Origin: Promethearchaeota archaeon
GTDB taxonomy: Archaea > Asgardarchaeota > Lokiarchaeia > Sigyniarchaeales > SOKP01
Reading direction: 5' to 3'
Assembly (NCBI GenBank): GCA_004524535.1
Contig: SDNY01000030.1
Span: 1-33,534 of the forward strand
Length of the DNA: 33,534 bases
Part shown: positions 2,471-24,463 of the stretch, piece by piece
Position numbering within the stretch: the stretch's first letter is position 1
Layout: every line of letters starts with the position of its first letter
The notes under the pieces: model-generated
What the model was told of the DNA's origin: nothing
Seen by the model: only the letters and a program-made list of their open reading frames with translations
The model's database searches: none
Program-made: the position numbers and the translations under genes

Positions 2471-4087
2471 ATGAGTAAAGAGGTAAAAGATTTTATTGAA
2501 TCAGCAGAACGAGAACTGAAACATCGTTTAGAATTAGAAAAAACGATTAAACAATTACAAGACCAGATTATAAGTTTGGGGGGTCAGATACCGGAGCAGA
2601 AATCATTAATCATAGAAAATGATATTAGTCCTAAAAGTATGAGCGTTGATGCGGAAGACTTTAAAATCTTAAAGGATATGGTCACATCGCAAAGAGATGA
2701 AATAGGCAAAAAAGAGAGTAATATTAAAGCGTTGGAATCTAAAATTGATGAATTAAAATCGGAACTTGAAAAATCTAGAAAAATCATTGATGAGTTAAAA
2801 GAAAATTCAAATTTTGAGAATGCCCTGAATTTAATCGATGCCCTAAAGGAAGAAAAATCAAATTTTGAAAATGAAATTGCTGGCTTAAATAAAAAAATTG
2901 CTGATTTGGAGGAGGAAAATGAAATACTTCTACAAAATATAGATACGGCAAAAGATACTTCAGTAGTAGAAAATGACTTGGATTCAGTCGAGGCCCTAAA
3001 GGAAGAAAAATCAAAGTTTGAAAATGAAATTGCTGGCTTAAATAAAAAAATTGCTGATTTAGAAGAGGAAAATGAAAAACTTCAACAAGTTATCGATAGT
3101 GTAGAAATCAACCAAGAAGTTATTGATAATATGAATCTTAAAATTATTGAATATGTGGATCAAATTTCCTCCTTAGAAGAAATCAATGAAACCCAGAGCG
3201 AAAATATAGAAAAAATAAAATCTGAACGAGATGCAATCGCTGCTGACCTGCAGGATAAAATTGATGAATTAATTGAAACAATTTCTGATTTAGAAGAGAA
3301 AAACAAAGCTTTACGTGAAATCGAACAAACTCCTGCAATTGACCAATCAACTATAACTAATTATGAAAATAATATTATTGATTTGGAAAAAAAAGTTGCT
3401 GAATTAGAGAATGAAAACAAAAATCTAGATGAAAAAAATCAGATGTTAAAAGCAGCACTTTTATTACATGTAGATGTAGAATCAAAACATGTGGCTCCCG
3501 AATCTAATGTAATGGAGGATGAAAAGATTATTTCAATTCCTAAAGGGATTGTAGAAGAGAGAGTAAAAGAACGAGATCAAGTTATAGATTCAATAGAAGA
3601 ATCTGGTCAAATACCACAGCAAGAAGTAAGTGAAAAAAGCGAAGAAACTGAAATAAGCGAATGGATTGAAGAGCCAACGATTGAGCCCGAAACCTTACCT
3701 CTTTCCTATGATGAAGCAAGTGAAATAAGCGAGGAGCCTGAAAAAAGCGAAGAAACTGAAATAAGCGAATGGATTGAAGAGCCAACGATTGAGCCCGAAA
3801 TCTCACCTCCGCCCAAATATGAACCAAGTGAAATAAGCGAACCAAGTGAACATTTGGAACCTGTGGAACCAGAAAAATTATCAGAAACGAGTGAACCTAC
3901 CTCAACTCAAGAACAAGAAGAAGTAATTATTGAATCCTCTACAGGGAGACGATTATGTCCGAAATGCGGAAATACTAATAAACTGCTCATTCGAGAAATG
4001 CCTGATAAGACCAAAATTATTTCAGCTGTGGCAGGATTATACGGGAAGAAATATAAGTGCGGCATGTGCGGAGCAGAGTGGCGCTGA
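2471..4087 (+). CDS. Long coiled-coil protein with acidic repeat region and C-terminal zinc ribbon
   Basis: A 538-residue protein of unknown function. Residues ~5-335 are almost continuous heptad-rich coiled coil (Glu/Lys/Leu/Ile/Asn), suggesting an elongated dimer or scaffold. Residues ~375-490 are an acidic, Ser/Pro/Glu-rich, probably disordered linker. Residues 493-538 form a zinc ribbon with CPKCG (Cys496, 499) and CGMCG (Cys530, 533). Two internal duplications are visible in protein and DNA: ~28 residues repeated 51 residues apart in the coil, and ~20 residues repeated 36 apart in the linker. The zinc ribbon is closely shared with the 184-residue protein at 22476-23030 (common pattern YGKKY-x-CG-x-CG-x-EW), so the two are paralogues. 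There is no signal peptide or membrane segment. It precedes two tandem seven-helix membrane proteins. Confidence 0.85.
   Translation: MSKEVKDFIESAERELKHRLELEKTIKQLQDQIISLGGQIPEQKSLIIENDISPKSMSVDAEDFKILKDMVTSQRDEIGKKESNIKALESKIDELKSELEKSRKIIDELKENSNFENALNLIDALKEEKSNFENEIAGLNKKIADLEEENEILLQNIDTAKDTSVVENDLDSVEALKEEKSKFENEIAGLNKKIADLEEENEKLQQVIDSVEINQEVIDNMNLKIIEYVDQISSLEEINETQSENIEKIKSERDAIAADLQDKIDELIETISDLEEKNKALREIEQTPAIDQSTITNYENNIIDLEKKVAELENENKNLDEKNQMLKAALLLHVDVESKHVAPESNVMEDEKIISIPKGIVEERVKERDQVIDSIEESGQIPQQEVSEKSEETEISEWIEEPTIEPETLPLSYDEASEISEEPEKSEETEISEWIEEPTIEPEISPPPKYEPSEISEPSEHLEPVEPEKLSETSEPTSTQEQEEVIIESSTGRRLCPKCGNTNKLLIREMPDKTKIISAVAGLYGKKYKCGMCGAEWR
2841..3077 (+). repeat. Intragenic direct repeat in the coiled coil (2 x 84 bp, 153 bp apart)
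   Basis: Positions 2841-2924 and 2994-3077 are nearly identical and encode two copies of a segment containing EIAGLNKKIADLEEENE. The 153-base offset equals 51 residues, so the coiled-coil frame is kept. This indicates a recent in-frame expansion of the coil. Confidence 0.9.
3631..3800 (+). repeat. Perfect 62-bp direct repeat in the acidic linker
   Basis: Positions 3631-3692 and 3739-3800 are identical, with a 108-base offset (36 codons). Each encodes a segment containing EKSEETEISEWIEEPTIEPE. Perfect nucleotide identity implies very recent duplication or ongoing slippage/gene conversion in the linker before the zinc ribbon. Confidence 0.92.
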
Positions 4088-4235: not shown

Positions 4236-5012
4236 ATGTTATTTGTGAACATTAAACCATCAACTCAACTTTCTGGTTTCCTTAGTTTAATTACAATATG
4301 CTTTGCAATCATTTTAGTCTTTTTCGTTTTGCATCTTGCGATAAAGCGACAAAATAAGTTACTTTACGCATTCTGTTTATTTGGGTTATCTATAGTTTCA
4401 CCTTGGTATCCAAGCGGTATTGGATATTTGTATTGGCTTATCACCGGAAAGATCATTGCTTACCAAATTTATATTATATTGGGCACAACGGGGTTCCCTA
4501 TTATAGCATTAAGTTGGAGCTATATTTACACTTCATTATTATATCCCCATTGGAAAAAATATGTTTTACTCATTTGGGGGATACTATCAATAATCTTTTA
4601 TCTATATCTGTTTTATTTTTTATTTTTTGCCCCAGGTGCGCCAATAGATACTATGATTGCACTTAAAAAAACAGAGTTAGATATTGAATATAAAGCATTC
4701 GTTCTAATTTATATAGGAATTGTTATAATAATTACAGGGCCCACATTTTTCCATTTTGCTATTGTGTCAATGAGAACAAAGGATGATCCAAAGATTCAAT
4801 GGAGAGGGAGATTAATATTATTAGCATCAATACTTTATTTGTTCGTCGCTCCTATGGACGCTTTATTTACACCTACACCAGTATTTTTAGTGATAATTAG
4901 AATAATTTTATTAATGGCAGCTTTATTTTTTTATATGGGATTTGTGATGCCCGATTGGGTAAAAAAACTCCTAAAATTGGAGATGGAAGAACAACCAACG
5001 CCAACAAGTTGA
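4236..5012 (+). CDS. Seven-helix integral membrane protein, tandem copy 1
   Basis: A 258-residue hydrophobic protein with about seven predicted membrane helices (roughly 13-35, 42-60, 70-95, 107-132, 153-180, 193-208, 215-237) and a short, charged C-terminus beginning MPDWVKKLL. No enzymatic motif was recognised. The layout resembles the sensor-type seven-helix modules seen alone or fused to kinases, but here there is no attached output domain. Copy 2 follows after 169 bases and is highly similar throughout, including an FFAPGAPID loop and a KDDPKIQWRGR loop. The ATG used by copy 2 is ATT here. This copy must start upstream (ATG 4236 or GTG 4245), so its first residues differ. Function unknown. 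Confidence 0.75.
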   Translation: MLFVNIKPSTQLSGFLSLITICFAIILVFFVLHLAIKRQNKLLYAFCLFGLSIVSPWYPSGIGYLYWLITGKIIAYQIYIILGTTGFPIIALSWSYIYTSLLYPHWKKYVLLIWGILSIIFYLYLFYFLFFAPGAPIDTMIALKKTELDIEYKAFVLIYIGIVIIITGPTFFHFAIVSMRTKDDPKIQWRGRLILLASILYLFVAPMDALFTPTPVFLVIIRIILLMAALFFYMGFVMPDWVKKLLKLEMEEQPTPTS

Positions 5013-5181: not shown

Positions 5182-5943
5182 ATGGACCAATCAACTCAAC
5201 TTGCCGGGTTACTTATTTTAATTTCAGTATGTTTTGTGATCATTTTAAGCGTTTTCGTTTTACATATTGCGATCAAGCGAAAAAATAAGTTACTTTACGC
5301 ATTCTGTTTATTTATGTTATTTTTAAATACACCTTGGATTCCAAGCGCTTTTGGATATTTGTATTGGCTCATCACTGGAAAGATATTTGCTTATCAAATT
5401 TATATTTTATTGGGCACAATGGGCATCCCTATTGCATTTTTAACTTGGTTCTATATTTACACTTCATTATTACATCCACATTGGAAAAAATATGTTTTAA
5501 TCAGCATTGGGATATATTCAATAATCTTTTATGTATATGTGTTTTATTTTTTATTTTTTGCCCCAGGTGCGCCAATAGATTATTTGATTGGAATTAAAAA
5601 AACTGAGTTAGATATTGAATATAGGGTGTTCGTCCTAATTTATATAGCATCTCTTCTTATTATTGGCGCTCCCACATTTTTACATTTTGCTATTGCATCA
5701 ATAAGAACAAAGGATGATCCAAAAATTCAATGGAGAGGTAGATTTATCTTAATATCATTAATACTGTTTATGATCGGTGCTCCTATAGATGCTTTATTTA
5801 CCCCTGATCCAATATTTTTAGTGGGAATTAGAATAATTTTATTATTGACGGCTTTATTTTTCTATATGGGATTTGTAATGCCCGATTGGGTAAAAAAACT
5901 CCTAAAATTGGAGATGGAAGAACACCCAACGCCAACAAGTTGA
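5182..5943 (+). CDS. Seven-helix integral membrane protein, tandem copy 2
   Basis: A 253-residue paralogue of the preceding gene with the same predicted seven-helix layout, the FFAPGAPID and KDDPKIQWRGR loops, and the MPDWVKKLL tail. The start is ATG 5182 (MDQSTQLAG). An ATG 14 bases upstream, aligning with the start of copy 1, is out of frame because of an indel between the copies. Differences are spread along the protein and keep hydrophobic character, so both copies appear to be under selection. No catalytic or ligand-binding motif is evident. A receptor or sensor role is possible but unsupported. Confidence 0.75.
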   Translation: MDQSTQLAGLLILISVCFVIILSVFVLHIAIKRKNKLLYAFCLFMLFLNTPWIPSAFGYLYWLITGKIFAYQIYILLGTMGIPIAFLTWFYIYTSLLHPHWKKYVLISIGIYSIIFYVYVFYFLFFAPGAPIDYLIGIKKTELDIEYRVFVLIYIASLLIIGAPTFLHFAIASIRTKDDPKIQWRGRFILISLILFMIGAPIDALFTPDPIFLVGIRIILLLTALFFYMGFVMPDWVKKLLKLEMEEHPTPTS

Positions 5944-8198: not shown

Positions 8199-9206
8199 TC
8201 ATTTCTTTTTTGCGACTGACTTCTTTTTAGCGGGCTTTTTTGCCGTTGTTTTTTTAGCGACAGGTTTCTTTTTTGCGACGGGTTTCCTTTTCGCGGGCTT
8301 TTTTACCGTTGTTTTTTTGGAGGCAGGTTTCTTTTTTGCGACTGGCTTCTTTTTTGCGGGCTTTTTTGCCGTTGTTTTTTTGGAGGCAGGTTTCTTTTTT
8401 GCGACTGACTTCTTTTTAGCGGGCTTTTTTGCCGTTGTTTTTTTAGCAACAGGTTTCTTTTTTGCTGCTGGTTTCTTTTTAGCTGGTTTTTTTACTGGTG
8501 GTTTTTTAACGAGACTATTTAAGTATATTTTATATTTTTGAGTAATTTTTCCTTTATAATAAGGAACTCCCCCTTTTTCCTCCCTAAATCTTTTTTGGAT
8601 TCTTATTTTCCACTTTTGAAAAGCTTTCGTTTCATGATCGCTCCATATGGCATTTTTCTCAGTTATTCTCTCATAGGATTCAATTTCAGATTTGGAGGTT
8701 GCTGGTTCTTTAGGCTTCTCTCGTTTTATTACTTTTTTCGGTGCATCCGGTTTGAATTTACTAATGATTTCCATTAATTCATGGCATTCAAAGACATTTC
8801 CTTTATTATCGCTAAAATAAGGATGATCAAAACTGTCTAAATAGATCGCAAAATCGAAATAATTAGTGTGATCAATCTCAGGCCCCATATATTGAGCAGT
8901 AAAAACGATTACTTGAGTGTCTTTGGAGAGGTTGATGATATTTCTTTTATATTCAGAATATTGATATAAAGAAATTTTTTCAAAATCAGTAATAGAAGTT
9001 AATACTTCAATTTGATCTTTATTCTTAATTTGAATATCATATTCTTCATACTTTTTATTATTAATTGAGGCATTGAGGGCAAGAAAGGAATATTCTTCTC
9101 CTTTCTCAAGCGTCAATTCTAAGAGTGCTTTTATAAAATATTTTATATGATTCCATTCTGAAGCTTTAGCGATTCCAATGATTTCTTTGGGGATACTCTC
9201 AGACAT
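8199..9206 (-). CDS. Protein with histone-H1-like lysine/proline/alanine repeat tail
   Basis: A 335-residue protein. Residues 1-155 form a mixed alpha/beta-looking domain that I do not recognise. Residues ~172-232 look like a second small basic helical domain (KAFQKWKIRIQKRF). Residues 233-335 are almost only Lys, Pro, Ala, Val, Thr and Ser, arranged as 21-residue repeats of the form KPAKKK-x-VAKKKP-x-x-KKTT-x-K. Such tails are typical of linker histone H1 and bacterial H1-like proteins and bind nucleic acid non-specifically by charge. There is no signal peptide or membrane segment. It is convergent with the aldehyde oxidoreductase (13 bases between stops). A nucleoid or RNA-binding role is likely; the N-terminal function is unknown. 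Confidence 0.8.
   Translation of the reverse strand: MSESIPKEIIGIAKASEWNHIKYFIKALLELTLEKGEEYSFLALNASINNKKYEEYDIQIKNKDQIEVLTSITDFEKISLYQYSEYKRNIINLSKDTQVIVFTAQYMGPEIDHTNYFDFAIYLDSFDHPYFSDNKGNVFECHELMEIISKFKPDAPKKVIKREKPKEPATSKSEIESYERITEKNAIWSDHETKAFQKWKIRIQKRFREEKGGVPYYKGKITQKYKIYLNSLVKKPPVKKPAKKKPAAKKKPVAKKTTAKKPAKKKSVAKKKPASKKTTAKKPAKKKPVAKKKPASKKTTVKKPAKRKPVAKKKPVAKKTTAKKPAKKKSVAKKK
8202..8489 (-). repeat. 63-bp coding tandem repeat (about 4.6 copies) in the lysine tail
   Basis: Residues 240-260, 261-281, 282-302 and 303-323, plus a 12-residue partial unit, encode the same 21-residue Lys/Ala/Pro pattern. Copies differ by a few substitutions. The period is exact, so copy number probably varies between strains by slippage. 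Confidence 0.92.
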
Positions 9207-21950: not shown

Positions 21951-21962
21951 AAGGAGGTTGAT
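21951..21962 (+). promoter_or_regulatory. Very strong Shine-Dalgarno site AAGGAGGTTGAT
   Basis: This is the longest anti-Shine-Dalgarno match in the window, ending two bases before ATG 21965 of the Gly/Arg-rich zinc protein. It suggests high translation of that small gene. Confidence 0.75.
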
Positions 21963-21964
21963 TT

Positions 21965-22165
21965 ATGAGCGGAAGAGGTGGTGGAGGCGGTAGAGGAAGA
22001 AGAGGCGGTGGAGGCGGCAGAGGCATGGGAGGCGGACCATACGCAGCGGGACCTGGAGGAGATTGTGTATGTCCTAATTGTGGGAACAGAGTGTCCCATC
22101 AAGTTGGAGTTCCTTGCTATAATAGAAATTGTCCAAAATGCGGCACCAAAATGACTAGAGCTTAA
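21965..22165 (+). CDS. Small Gly/Arg-rich protein with C-terminal zinc-ribbon/rubredoxin-like knuckles
   Basis: A 66-residue protein. Residues 1-30 are an RGG-like low-complexity tract (SGRGGGGGRGRRGGGGGRG). Residues 34-63 hold six Cys: CVCPNCG (34, 36, 39), Cys51 and CPKCG (56, 59). The C-terminal motif resembles small archaeal and bacterial ferredoxin-annotated proteins that bind zinc or iron with a C-x-C-x2-C...C-x2-C pattern. The Gly/Arg tract is of the type that binds RNA in eukaryotes. The outstanding Shine-Dalgarno site indicates abundant expression. Role unknown; RNA or redox chaperone functions are both possible. Confidence 0.82.
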   Translation: MSGRGGGGGRGRRGGGGGRGMGGGPYAAGPGGDCVCPNCGNRVSHQVGVPCYNRNCPKCGTKMTRA

Positions 22166-22475: not shown

Positions 22476-23030
22476 GTGGTGAACGAAATCAATCAAAATA
22501 ACGGAAAGGACTCCGCTGATGCGCAAGAATTTATACAAACATTAACAAACACTATTAAGACTCTGGAAAAAACAATTTCCGTCTTAAATAAGAAATTAAA
22601 AGATGCTGAAAACGAAATTAAAACGCTCAGAGAAGAAAATAGGAATCTGGAAACTAAAGGAGTTAATGCTAGTGAATTAATAAAAGATAATGAAATGTAT
22701 AAAATGAAAATTGCTGAATTAGAAAGAGAAATCAAAGAGTACAAGAGAAATCAAGAACCATATGAAGCTGAAAAAGCAAAATCAGAAAAGGTTACCTCAG
22801 TCACTAAAGCTTCTGATATTGTGCCAAAAAAACCGTCTGAAGTAATCAAGGAGCAAGTGTTAGGAGTCTCAGAAAGCACTATTGCAACCAGGAGAAAATG
22901 CCCTAATTGTGGTAATGCTAATCCTGCCTCAATCCATGAAAAAGTTGATAAAACGAGAATTATCATAGAATCCCCAAGAATGTATGGTAAGAAATATATA
23001 TGCGGCGAATGCGGGATCGAGTGGATATAA
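22476..23030 (+). CDS. Short coiled-coil protein with C-terminal zinc ribbon (paralogue of 2471-4087)
   Basis: A 184-residue protein. Residues ~18-95 are heptad-patterned coiled coil, 96-138 a charged linker, and 140-184 a zinc ribbon with CPNCG (Cys142, 145) and CGECG (Cys176, 179). The ribbon shares RR-x-CP-x-CGN, DKT and YGKKY-x-CG-x-CG-x-EW with the 538-residue protein, so the pair differ mainly in coil and linker length. It starts with GTG (22476 or 22479). An ATG at 22436 is out of frame. It stands just upstream of two small GTPases on the same strand, which makes it a candidate partner or effector (inference). No membrane segment. Confidence 0.8.
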   Translation: MVNEINQNNGKDSADAQEFIQTLTNTIKTLEKTISVLNKKLKDAENEIKTLREENRNLETKGVNASELIKDNEMYKMKIAELEREIKEYKRNQEPYEAEKAKSEKVTSVTKASDIVPKKPSEVIKEQVLGVSESTIATRRKCPNCGNANPASIHEKVDKTRIIIESPRMYGKKYICGECGIEWI

Positions 23031-23133: not shown

Positions 23134-23688
23134 ATGAGTCAACCTGGTTTAATCTTTAAAATAATTATTGGTGGTGATGGTGGTGTAGGTAAAACTACCA
23201 TGCTACACCGCTATGTTAATAATGAATTCATATTTGATTCGAAAATGACGATCGGTACGGATATTCTTAATAAAATGATCACATTAAAAGAGGGCCCAGT
23301 CTGCGCATTACAATTATGGGACTTTGGCGGACAAGAAAGGTTCAGATTCATTCTCGATAGCTTTGTAAAAGGGGCTGCGGGAGCATTTTTAATGTTTGAT
23401 TTAACAGTTTTTATTAGTTTTAATAATTTACCTAAATGGCTAGATCTTGTCCGTAATGAGGATCCCACACTCCCTATTCTTCTTATCGGATCTAAATATG
23501 ATTTAATAGATTCTATCACAGTTGATGATGATCTTGTTCGGGAGTTTGTCGAAGACAATAATATATGCGGATATTGTAAAGTCTCCTCGAAAACGGGATA
23601 TAACGTCAATATAGCATTTGAATCATTAATAAGCACTATCATAGATTATAGACACATAACCATAGTAGATCAATCCATGGAAGTTTGA
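23134..23688 (+). CDS. Ras-superfamily small GTPase, tandem copy 1
   Basis: A 184-residue GTPase with a complete P-loop GGDGGVGKTT (13-22), switch I Thr39 in MTIGTD, and switch II WDFGGQERF (Asp63, Gln67). The base-recognition motif is SKYD (120-123) instead of NKxD, and G5 is SSK (151-153). The GG before the catalytic Gln and the [S/T]KYD motif resemble Spg1/Tem1-type GTPases more than Rab. The C-terminus (TIVDQSMEV) has no Cys, so prenylation is not expected. It should bind GTP and switch effectors in the cytosol or at membranes through partners. It is 85% identical to copy 2, with most differences conservative. Confidence 0.93.
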   Translation: MSQPGLIFKIIIGGDGGVGKTTMLHRYVNNEFIFDSKMTIGTDILNKMITLKEGPVCALQLWDFGGQERFRFILDSFVKGAAGAFLMFDLTVFISFNNLPKWLDLVRNEDPTLPILLIGSKYDLIDSITVDDDLVREFVEDNNICGYCKVSSKTGYNVNIAFESLISTIIDYRHITIVDQSMEV

Positions 23689-23908: not shown

Positions 23909-24463
23909 ATGATTCAACCTAGTTTAATCTTTAAAATAATTATTGGTGGTGATGGTGGAGTAGGTAAAACTACTATGCTACACCGCTATGTTAATGGTAG
24001 ATTCTTATTTGATACGAAGATGACCATCGGTACGGATATTTTTCATAAAATACTCACATTAAAAGAGGGTCCCGTCTGCTCATTACAATTATGGGACTTT
24101 GGCGGACAAGAAAGGTTCAGATTCATCCTCGATAGTTTTTTAAAAGGCGCTGCGGGTGCATTTTTAATGTTTGATTTAACAAACTATATCAGTTTTCATA
24201 ATTTACCTAAATGGCTAAATATTGTCCGTAAAGATGATCCCACACTCCCTATTCTTCTTCTAGGATCTAAATATGATTTAGTAGATTCTATCACAGTTGA
24301 TGATGATCTTGTTTCTGAGTTTGTCGAAGACAATAATATAAGTGGATATTGTAAAGTCTCCTCGAAAACGGGCTATAACATCAATTTTGTATTTGAATCA
24401 TTAATAGGCACTATCATAGATTATAGACACATAACCATAGTAGATCAATCCATGGAAGTTTGA
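23909..24463 (+). CDS. Ras-superfamily small GTPase, tandem copy 2
   Basis: A 184-residue near twin of copy 1 (157 of 184 residues identical by manual alignment). P-loop GGDGGVGKTT, Thr39, WDFGGQERF, SKYD and SSK are all unchanged, and the C-terminus TIVDQSMEV again lacks a lipidation Cys. Differences cluster after the P-loop helix (NNEF to GRFL), around switch I and on the surface after switch II (DLTVF to DLTNY). These are positions that usually contact effectors or regulators, so the copies may have different partners (inference). Its 3' flank runs into the convergent minus-strand gene 64 bases beyond the stop. Confidence 0.93.
   Translation: MIQPSLIFKIIIGGDGGVGKTTMLHRYVNGRFLFDTKMTIGTDIFHKILTLKEGPVCSLQLWDFGGQERFRFILDSFLKGAAGAFLMFDLTNYISFHNLPKWLNIVRKDDPTLPILLLGSKYDLVDSITVDDDLVSEFVEDNNISGYCKVSSKTGYNINFVFESLIGTIIDYRHITIVDQSMEV

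Follow-up and report, generated by a model that had tools for sequence, protein, structure and literature searches.

A stretch of 33,534 nucleotides from a Promethearchaeota archaeon (contig SDNY01000030.1; the window, analysed at its full length) encodes a 538-residue protein that carries a zinc ribbon at the end of a long coiled coil, together with a 184-residue protein with a related ribbon. The first-pass annotation had read the long protein as a spacer or tether in which coil length is evolvable and still changing, belonging to a family that appeared not to have been described before.

Layout of the protein and history of its length

The 538-residue open reading frame was confirmed, as was the ribbon that it has in common with the 184-residue protein (BLASTP, 40 of 99 positions identical, via the ribbon; E 1e-16). 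AlphaFold2, run with seven orthologs, predicted helices at residues 3-52, 61-111, 113-164, 172-285, and 292-333, a region of pLDDT < 50 at residues 376-492 and a small C-terminal ribbon (Table 1). The linker composition (residues 341-489) was 30% Glu, 13% Ser, and 11% Pro. With helices over residues 3-333, as compared to about 90 heptad-patterned residues in the 184-residue protein, the coil was around fourfold longer, as had been annotated. The shorter protein displayed no N-terminal head, and the resemblance of its coil to that of the 538-residue protein was weak and of heptad type only; in the ribbon tree, which has 56 columns and resolves few deep forks, its ribbon grouped only with its ortholog in genome G107, apart from the ribbon of the 538-residue protein within the gelsolin-type ribbons. 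The 184-residue protein is best described as a paralog with a different coil, and not as a short version of the 538-residue protein. Pfam matches of the coil to GAS (just over its cut-off), TPR_MLP1_2, and Rab11-FIP3 were discarded as generic heptad matches to unrelated families.

Table 1. Features of the window discussed in the text (position 1 is the first nucleotide of the window).
Feature	Position	Strand	Details
Coding sequence, 538-aa head-coil-linker-ribbon protein	2471..4087	+	ATG start; intact ORF; 27 further genomes of the family have orthologs
N-terminal helical head, aa 1-110	2471..2800	+	Alignments; profile matches
Coiled-coil rod, aa 61-333	2651..3469	+	AlphaFold2 pLDDT ~90 over most; heptad periodicity
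Coil duplication, copy 1	2840..2923	+	81/84 nt identical to copy 2; offset 153, in frame
Coil duplication, copy 2	2993..3076	+	Also present in G107 ortholog
Linker, acidic, Ser/Pro-rich, mostly disordered, aa 334-489	3470..3937	+	Low pLDDT; composition
Linker repeat, copy 1	3631..3732	+	First 62 nt identical to copy 2; offset 108, in frame
Linker repeat, copy 2	3739..3840	+	First 62 nt identical to copy 1
C-terminal zinc ribbon, aa 490-538, Loki2DGel Zn domain family	3938..4084	+	PDB 7WHG match
Multi-pass membrane protein	4236..5012	+	Immediately follows the 538-aa gene
Tandem paralog of the membrane protein	5182..5943	+	74% identical to the protein at 4236
184-aa paralog, short coil and ribbon (ribbon 22881-23024)	22476..23030	+	ORF; ribbon profile; BLASTP
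Ras-family small GTPase	23134..23688	+	PF00071 E 2.6e-37; 104 nt downstream of the 184-aa gene
Second Ras-family small GTPase	23909..24463	+	PF00071 E 3.6e-35

Both in-frame duplications noticed at first were real. The one in the coil spans 51 residues and occurred in the window species and its sister species; the other (62 of 62 nucleotides identical, 3631-3692 vs. 3739-3800) had been counted with the coil but corresponds to residues 387-444, in the Glu/Ser/Pro-rich disordered region outside it. The ortholog of G107, another genome assembly, displayed the same layout with both duplications present, thus making an assembly artefact unlikely for the repeats. Copy 1 of the coil duplication was closer to its counterpart in G107 (83/84) than to copy 2 of its own gene (81/84), and over 102 nucleotides the linker repeat matched G107 at 99 positions vs. 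93 between the copies; since the copies are closer to their G107 counterparts than to each other, both duplications predate the split from G107. The 62-nucleotide core of the linker repeat was fully identical within the window gene and matched G107 at 60 of 62 positions, and some later homogenisation of this core is possible. Since the split (95.7% nucleotide identity) only the linker has changed in length, with 45 and 9 additional nucleotides in G107, which goes against a coil still changing in length.

The head-coil-ribbon orthologs (n = 28) had total lengths of 395-556 residues. Coils with a well-placed boundary measured about 276-342 residues, most orthologs having 276-298, near 290, across genera, and the window protein and its G107 ortholog, which carry the coil duplication, about 333-342; the exact spread of these values is rough, coil and linker having been split by a proline change-point whose placement is wrong for at least five sequences (L048, L102, L176, L177, and that of the window, for which the AlphaFold value of 333 was taken). 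The clearest length differences among orthologs were located in the disordered linker. The rod is of near-constant length (about 280-340 residues), and the survey of the 28 orthologs, with most changes carried by the linker, weakened the idea of a coil of evolvable length.

Ortholog alignments revealed a conserved head motif, [IV]LK[DEN]M[VL]xSQRxELxxKD, at residues 66-82, and both ends of the protein were conserved across six genera. The head profile matched in 70 of the 79 genomes of the order, and many of these matches were proteins without ribbon. Some had the head and a long coil ending in HEAT repeats (PF13646, E 2.9e-14), a form whose HEAT-like version also occurred in the window genome (G000:C51, L145); in these proteins (e.g., L116 and G000:C51) the N-terminal head is homologous to that of the 538-residue protein and the coil is likewise long, whereas C-terminal HEAT_2 repeats replace the linker and ribbon. 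Because the same type of head occurs with the ribbon, HEAT repeats, or a third C-terminus, head and coil form one module, with the C-terminus being exchangeable. Among the side observations, the head-coil-HEAT proteins made up a second family in many genomes of the order (G000:C51 19747-20061, L145 5791-7062; L096-L119), and the third C-terminus was found in a set of proteins of 326-347 residues (L152-L155), possibly a winged helix by eye. Flagellin and a designed coil were the only PDB matches of the head, both weak, and were rejected.

Identity and spread of the zinc ribbon

A profile built from seven paralogous ribbons matched residues 285-333 of PDB 7WHG, the Lokiarchaeota gelsolin 2DGel, with an E value of 7e-21, and a broader ribbon profile matched the C-terminal domain of the same structure with 2.8e-20. 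The ribbon is thus the published Zn domain of Loki2DGel, and the family had not been undescribed. Akil et al. (2022; PMC9433394) presented this domain as potentially zinc-binding, with a conserved Tyr loop, widespread at the C-termini of unrelated Loki proteins in a position stated as exclusively C-terminal, and occurring also alone. In that work no association with rabbit F-actin was seen for the domain on its own, the GFP-tail had a diffuse distribution in human cells, and the role of the domain was left open.

In both window proteins the ribbon was C-terminal. The homologous domain of Loki2DGel (PDB 7WHG; PMC9433394) has four equivalent Cys and the conserved Tyr loop, and lies likewise at the C-terminus behind a linker variable in sequence and length; in contrast, the 538-residue protein carries its ribbon behind a coiled coil and a distinct conserved head, with no gelsolin domains. 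Gelsolin repeats (PF00626) were listed neither for this protein nor for the 184-residue one, and neither locus was among the gelsolin matches of the genome. Among 78 diverse sequences, those of the two window proteins being part of the set, no substitution occurred at the four Cys of the two CxxC pairs and hardly any at Pro, Asp, Tyr, and Lys of the ribbon; the model displayed two long strands forming a hairpin. From the Cys pairs, zinc binding by the ribbon is predicted. PDB matches to PRDM9 and other C2H2 proteins were dismissed, as the alignments were limited to brief CxxC segments recurring from one tandem finger to the next.

The earlier view of a ribboned coil that belongs to a larger family was correct. 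The ribbon profile was found in 143 of the 228 genomes of the phylum sample, part of them incomplete metagenome assemblies. Genomes of the window's order usually contained 4-12 copies, with a few lower counts, and those elsewhere mostly one. A profile search of the window genome retrieved eight ribbon genes, encoding one gelsolin-ribbon protein, two stand-alone ribbons, one Pro-rich coil, three further coils (both window genes included), and one short protein. Coil-ribbon proteins were already present in other families of the class (L133, L141, L144). Outside the class the ribbon formed a stand-alone protein of about 46-66 residues, mostly single-copy, in nearly all sampled families (L120-L139), and no widely shared operon was found among the neighbours of its gene outside the order. 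As Akil et al. could not consistently detect the domain outside Loki (PMC9433394), the stand-alone ribbon of other Asgard families extends the published family.

The partners of the ribbon were varied. It was joined to paired gelsolin domains (PF00626 E 6.7e-28), to coils of several unrelated kinds, to Pro-rich tails, to a protein with a membrane segment, and to other globular domains without Pfam match, besides occurring alone; such varied fusions are most likely the behaviour of a promiscuous docking module. In genome G161 (family f4), L080 and L086 had the ribbon at their N-terminus and L071 had two copies of it, all three being long Pro-rich proteins, so that family-wide the Zn domain is not exclusively C-terminal, against the published statement. 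The Zn domain itself was already known and its wide use as an add-on tag had been barely explored; new here are the ribbon gene counts, the varied fusions, the stand-alone form in other Asgard families, the head with exchangeable C-termini, and the proximity to gelsolin genes. As separate observations, two proteins of genus g3 (L046, L047) presented a conserved globular N-terminal domain before coil and ribbon, bPH-like by eye and without Pfam match, and groups of two or three ribbon genes stood in tandem at G157:C5 214041-216223 and G108:C4 173276-174328, showing local duplication of the family.

Gene neighbourhoods

One non-gelsolin ribbon gene was located ≤10 kb from a gelsolin gene in each of nine genomes (9/9, vs. 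1.25 expected), with coordinates pooled by hand and an expectation that treats genomes as single circles, though some consist of many contigs; these counts are not independent, as conserved synteny and local or tandem duplication of ribbon genes contribute to them and may explain part of the excess. In genus g7, a coil-ribbon gene of 149-188 residues stood head to head with the gelsolin gene at 7 of 7 loci examined, its protein being 46-70% identical between the five genomes compared, and in G098 and G088 a stand-alone ribbon gene abutted the gelsolin-ribbon gene. The 538-residue gene itself did not adjoin a gelsolin gene, and its neighbours differed between genera. It was also observed that gelsolin-ribbon genes lay in a conserved cluster (L053, L054, L049, L146, L161, L156) together with genes for a coiled-coil protein (motif DKSIVDALSALGW), a GtrA-like and a weakly EMC3/YidC-like membrane protein, and what is probably a radical SAM protein; in most cases a short ribbon gene (111-124 residues) was present as well.

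Among the loci read, the membrane protein downstream of the 538-residue gene was found in the window genome and G107 only. Relatives of it were seen near several ribbon genes, including stand-alone ones in other genomes (L157, L159, L164, L149). The adjacency of the 184-residue gene and a GTPase gene was kept in two sister genomes (L061, L043).

Possible roles of the coil-ribbon protein

We tentatively favour, at close to an even chance, a coiled-coil scaffold or adaptor of fixed length that bears a zinc docking tag in common with gelsolin and is linked to the gelsolin/actin system. What was computed comprises the architecture, the homology of the ribbon, the conserved ends, the swapping of C-termini behind the head, and the proximity of ribbon and gelsolin genes. 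The conserved helical head and the near-constant rod carry the Zn domain on a flexible acidic linker. Reading further from sequence, the rod would oligomerise and position the domain, and the domain, with bound metal, would most likely be an exchangeable tag with which its carriers dock at a single common site in the cell that the gelsolin/actin system uses. Direct binding of the tag to F-actin is disfavoured: in the published assay the domain was not an F-actin binder, since the isolated form showed no association, although this negative result was obtained with rabbit actin. A broader version, in which one zinc ribbon is the plug-in tag of an actin severer, coiled-coil rods, Pro-rich coils, and membrane proteins, all docking at one cytoskeletal or membrane hub, seems to us rather unlikely. 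If it were true, a prokaryotic scaffold network would be built around the actin system of Lokiarchaeia. The organisation of Asgard actin is central to the question of the origin of the eukaryotic cell. Previously left without a role, the gelsolin Zn domain becomes a testable bait for partners of the Loki actin system through the finding that coiled-coil proteins and further ones bear it, that it has multiplied in one order, and that its genes are placed near those of gelsolin.

Four other readings were given a lower weight than a scaffold with a docking tag. That of the first-pass annotation, a tether in which ribbon and head bind two sites and duplication of the coil tunes the distance, is unlikely. 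A bridging or scaffold role remains plausible with both ends conserved, a long helical rod predicted, and an in-frame coil duplication in the window species and its sister; length tuning, however, is weak, as most coils keep to 276-298 residues across genera with differences largely in the disordered linker, the coil duplication is older than the sister split, and the coil of the 184-residue protein, a paralog, is a different one. A ribbon of TFIIS/RPB9 type acting in transcription, through binding to nucleic acid or RNA polymerase, appears quite unlikely. The closest Foldseek folds were indeed the zinc ribbons of TFIIS, RPA12/RPB9, and RNase P (best 1TFI, TM 0.54), and the TFIIS/RPB9/RPA12 ribbons (PF01096) have the general zinc-ribbon fold and two CxxC pairs in common with the window ribbon, but the spacing of the Cys pairs is longer in the latter and no fold match was significant (best E 0.62). 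No Pfam or NCBIfam zinc-ribbon model passed its cut-off, those of TFIIS, RPB9, and ribosomal families included, and the match to a transcription-factor or ribosomal family that would have refuted the first-pass annotation was looked for and not obtained; PF01096 reached 15.6 bits on the isolated ribbon vs. a cut-off of 21, and the sole gene of the genome over that cut-off was a different one. A fusion to gelsolin would also be unexpected for a polymerase factor.

Recruitment by Ras/Rab-like GTPases, with ribbon-coil proteins tethering membranes as golgin-type effectors, is improbable in our view. The 184-residue gene and the gene of a Ras-family GTPase, both on one strand, were 104-125 nucleotides apart in 3 of 3 genomes of its genus in which the two were read, and in two genera (L148, L187) some 1.3 kb separated a Pro-rich coil-ribbon gene from the gene of a Ras-like GTPase. 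Lokiarchaeia carry very many small GTPase genes, and such adjacency is therefore cheap; moreover, the long-coil gene had no close GTPase neighbour and no GTPase-binding domain was recognised. Golgin-type tethers of eukaryotes also have a long coil with small conserved ends, and some ribbon-coil relatives adjoin small GTPase genes, but the comparison is one of working only, as no sequence relation was shown and the window protein has no GRIP or golgin domain. Least probable of all is a structural cap, i.e., a zinc-folded ribbon that has no specific partner and serves just to end the chain or to hold it in an oligomer. The surroundings of the Cys pairs tolerate change at positions other than Cys, Pro, Asp, Tyr, and Lys, which is consistent with it, as is the lack of binding in the sole published assay, whereas the near-invariance of those four non-Cys residues and the stand-alone protein of many Asgard families suggest a binding surface.

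Two further genes of the window were observed in passing. At 8199-9206 (-) a protein had a Lys/Ala/Pro-rich, histone-H1-like tail with about five 63-nucleotide repeats and a weak HC2 match below the cut-off. At about 21962-22165 (+), just upstream of the 184-residue gene, a small Gly/Arg-rich protein carried two CxxC motifs of its own, as a separate pair.
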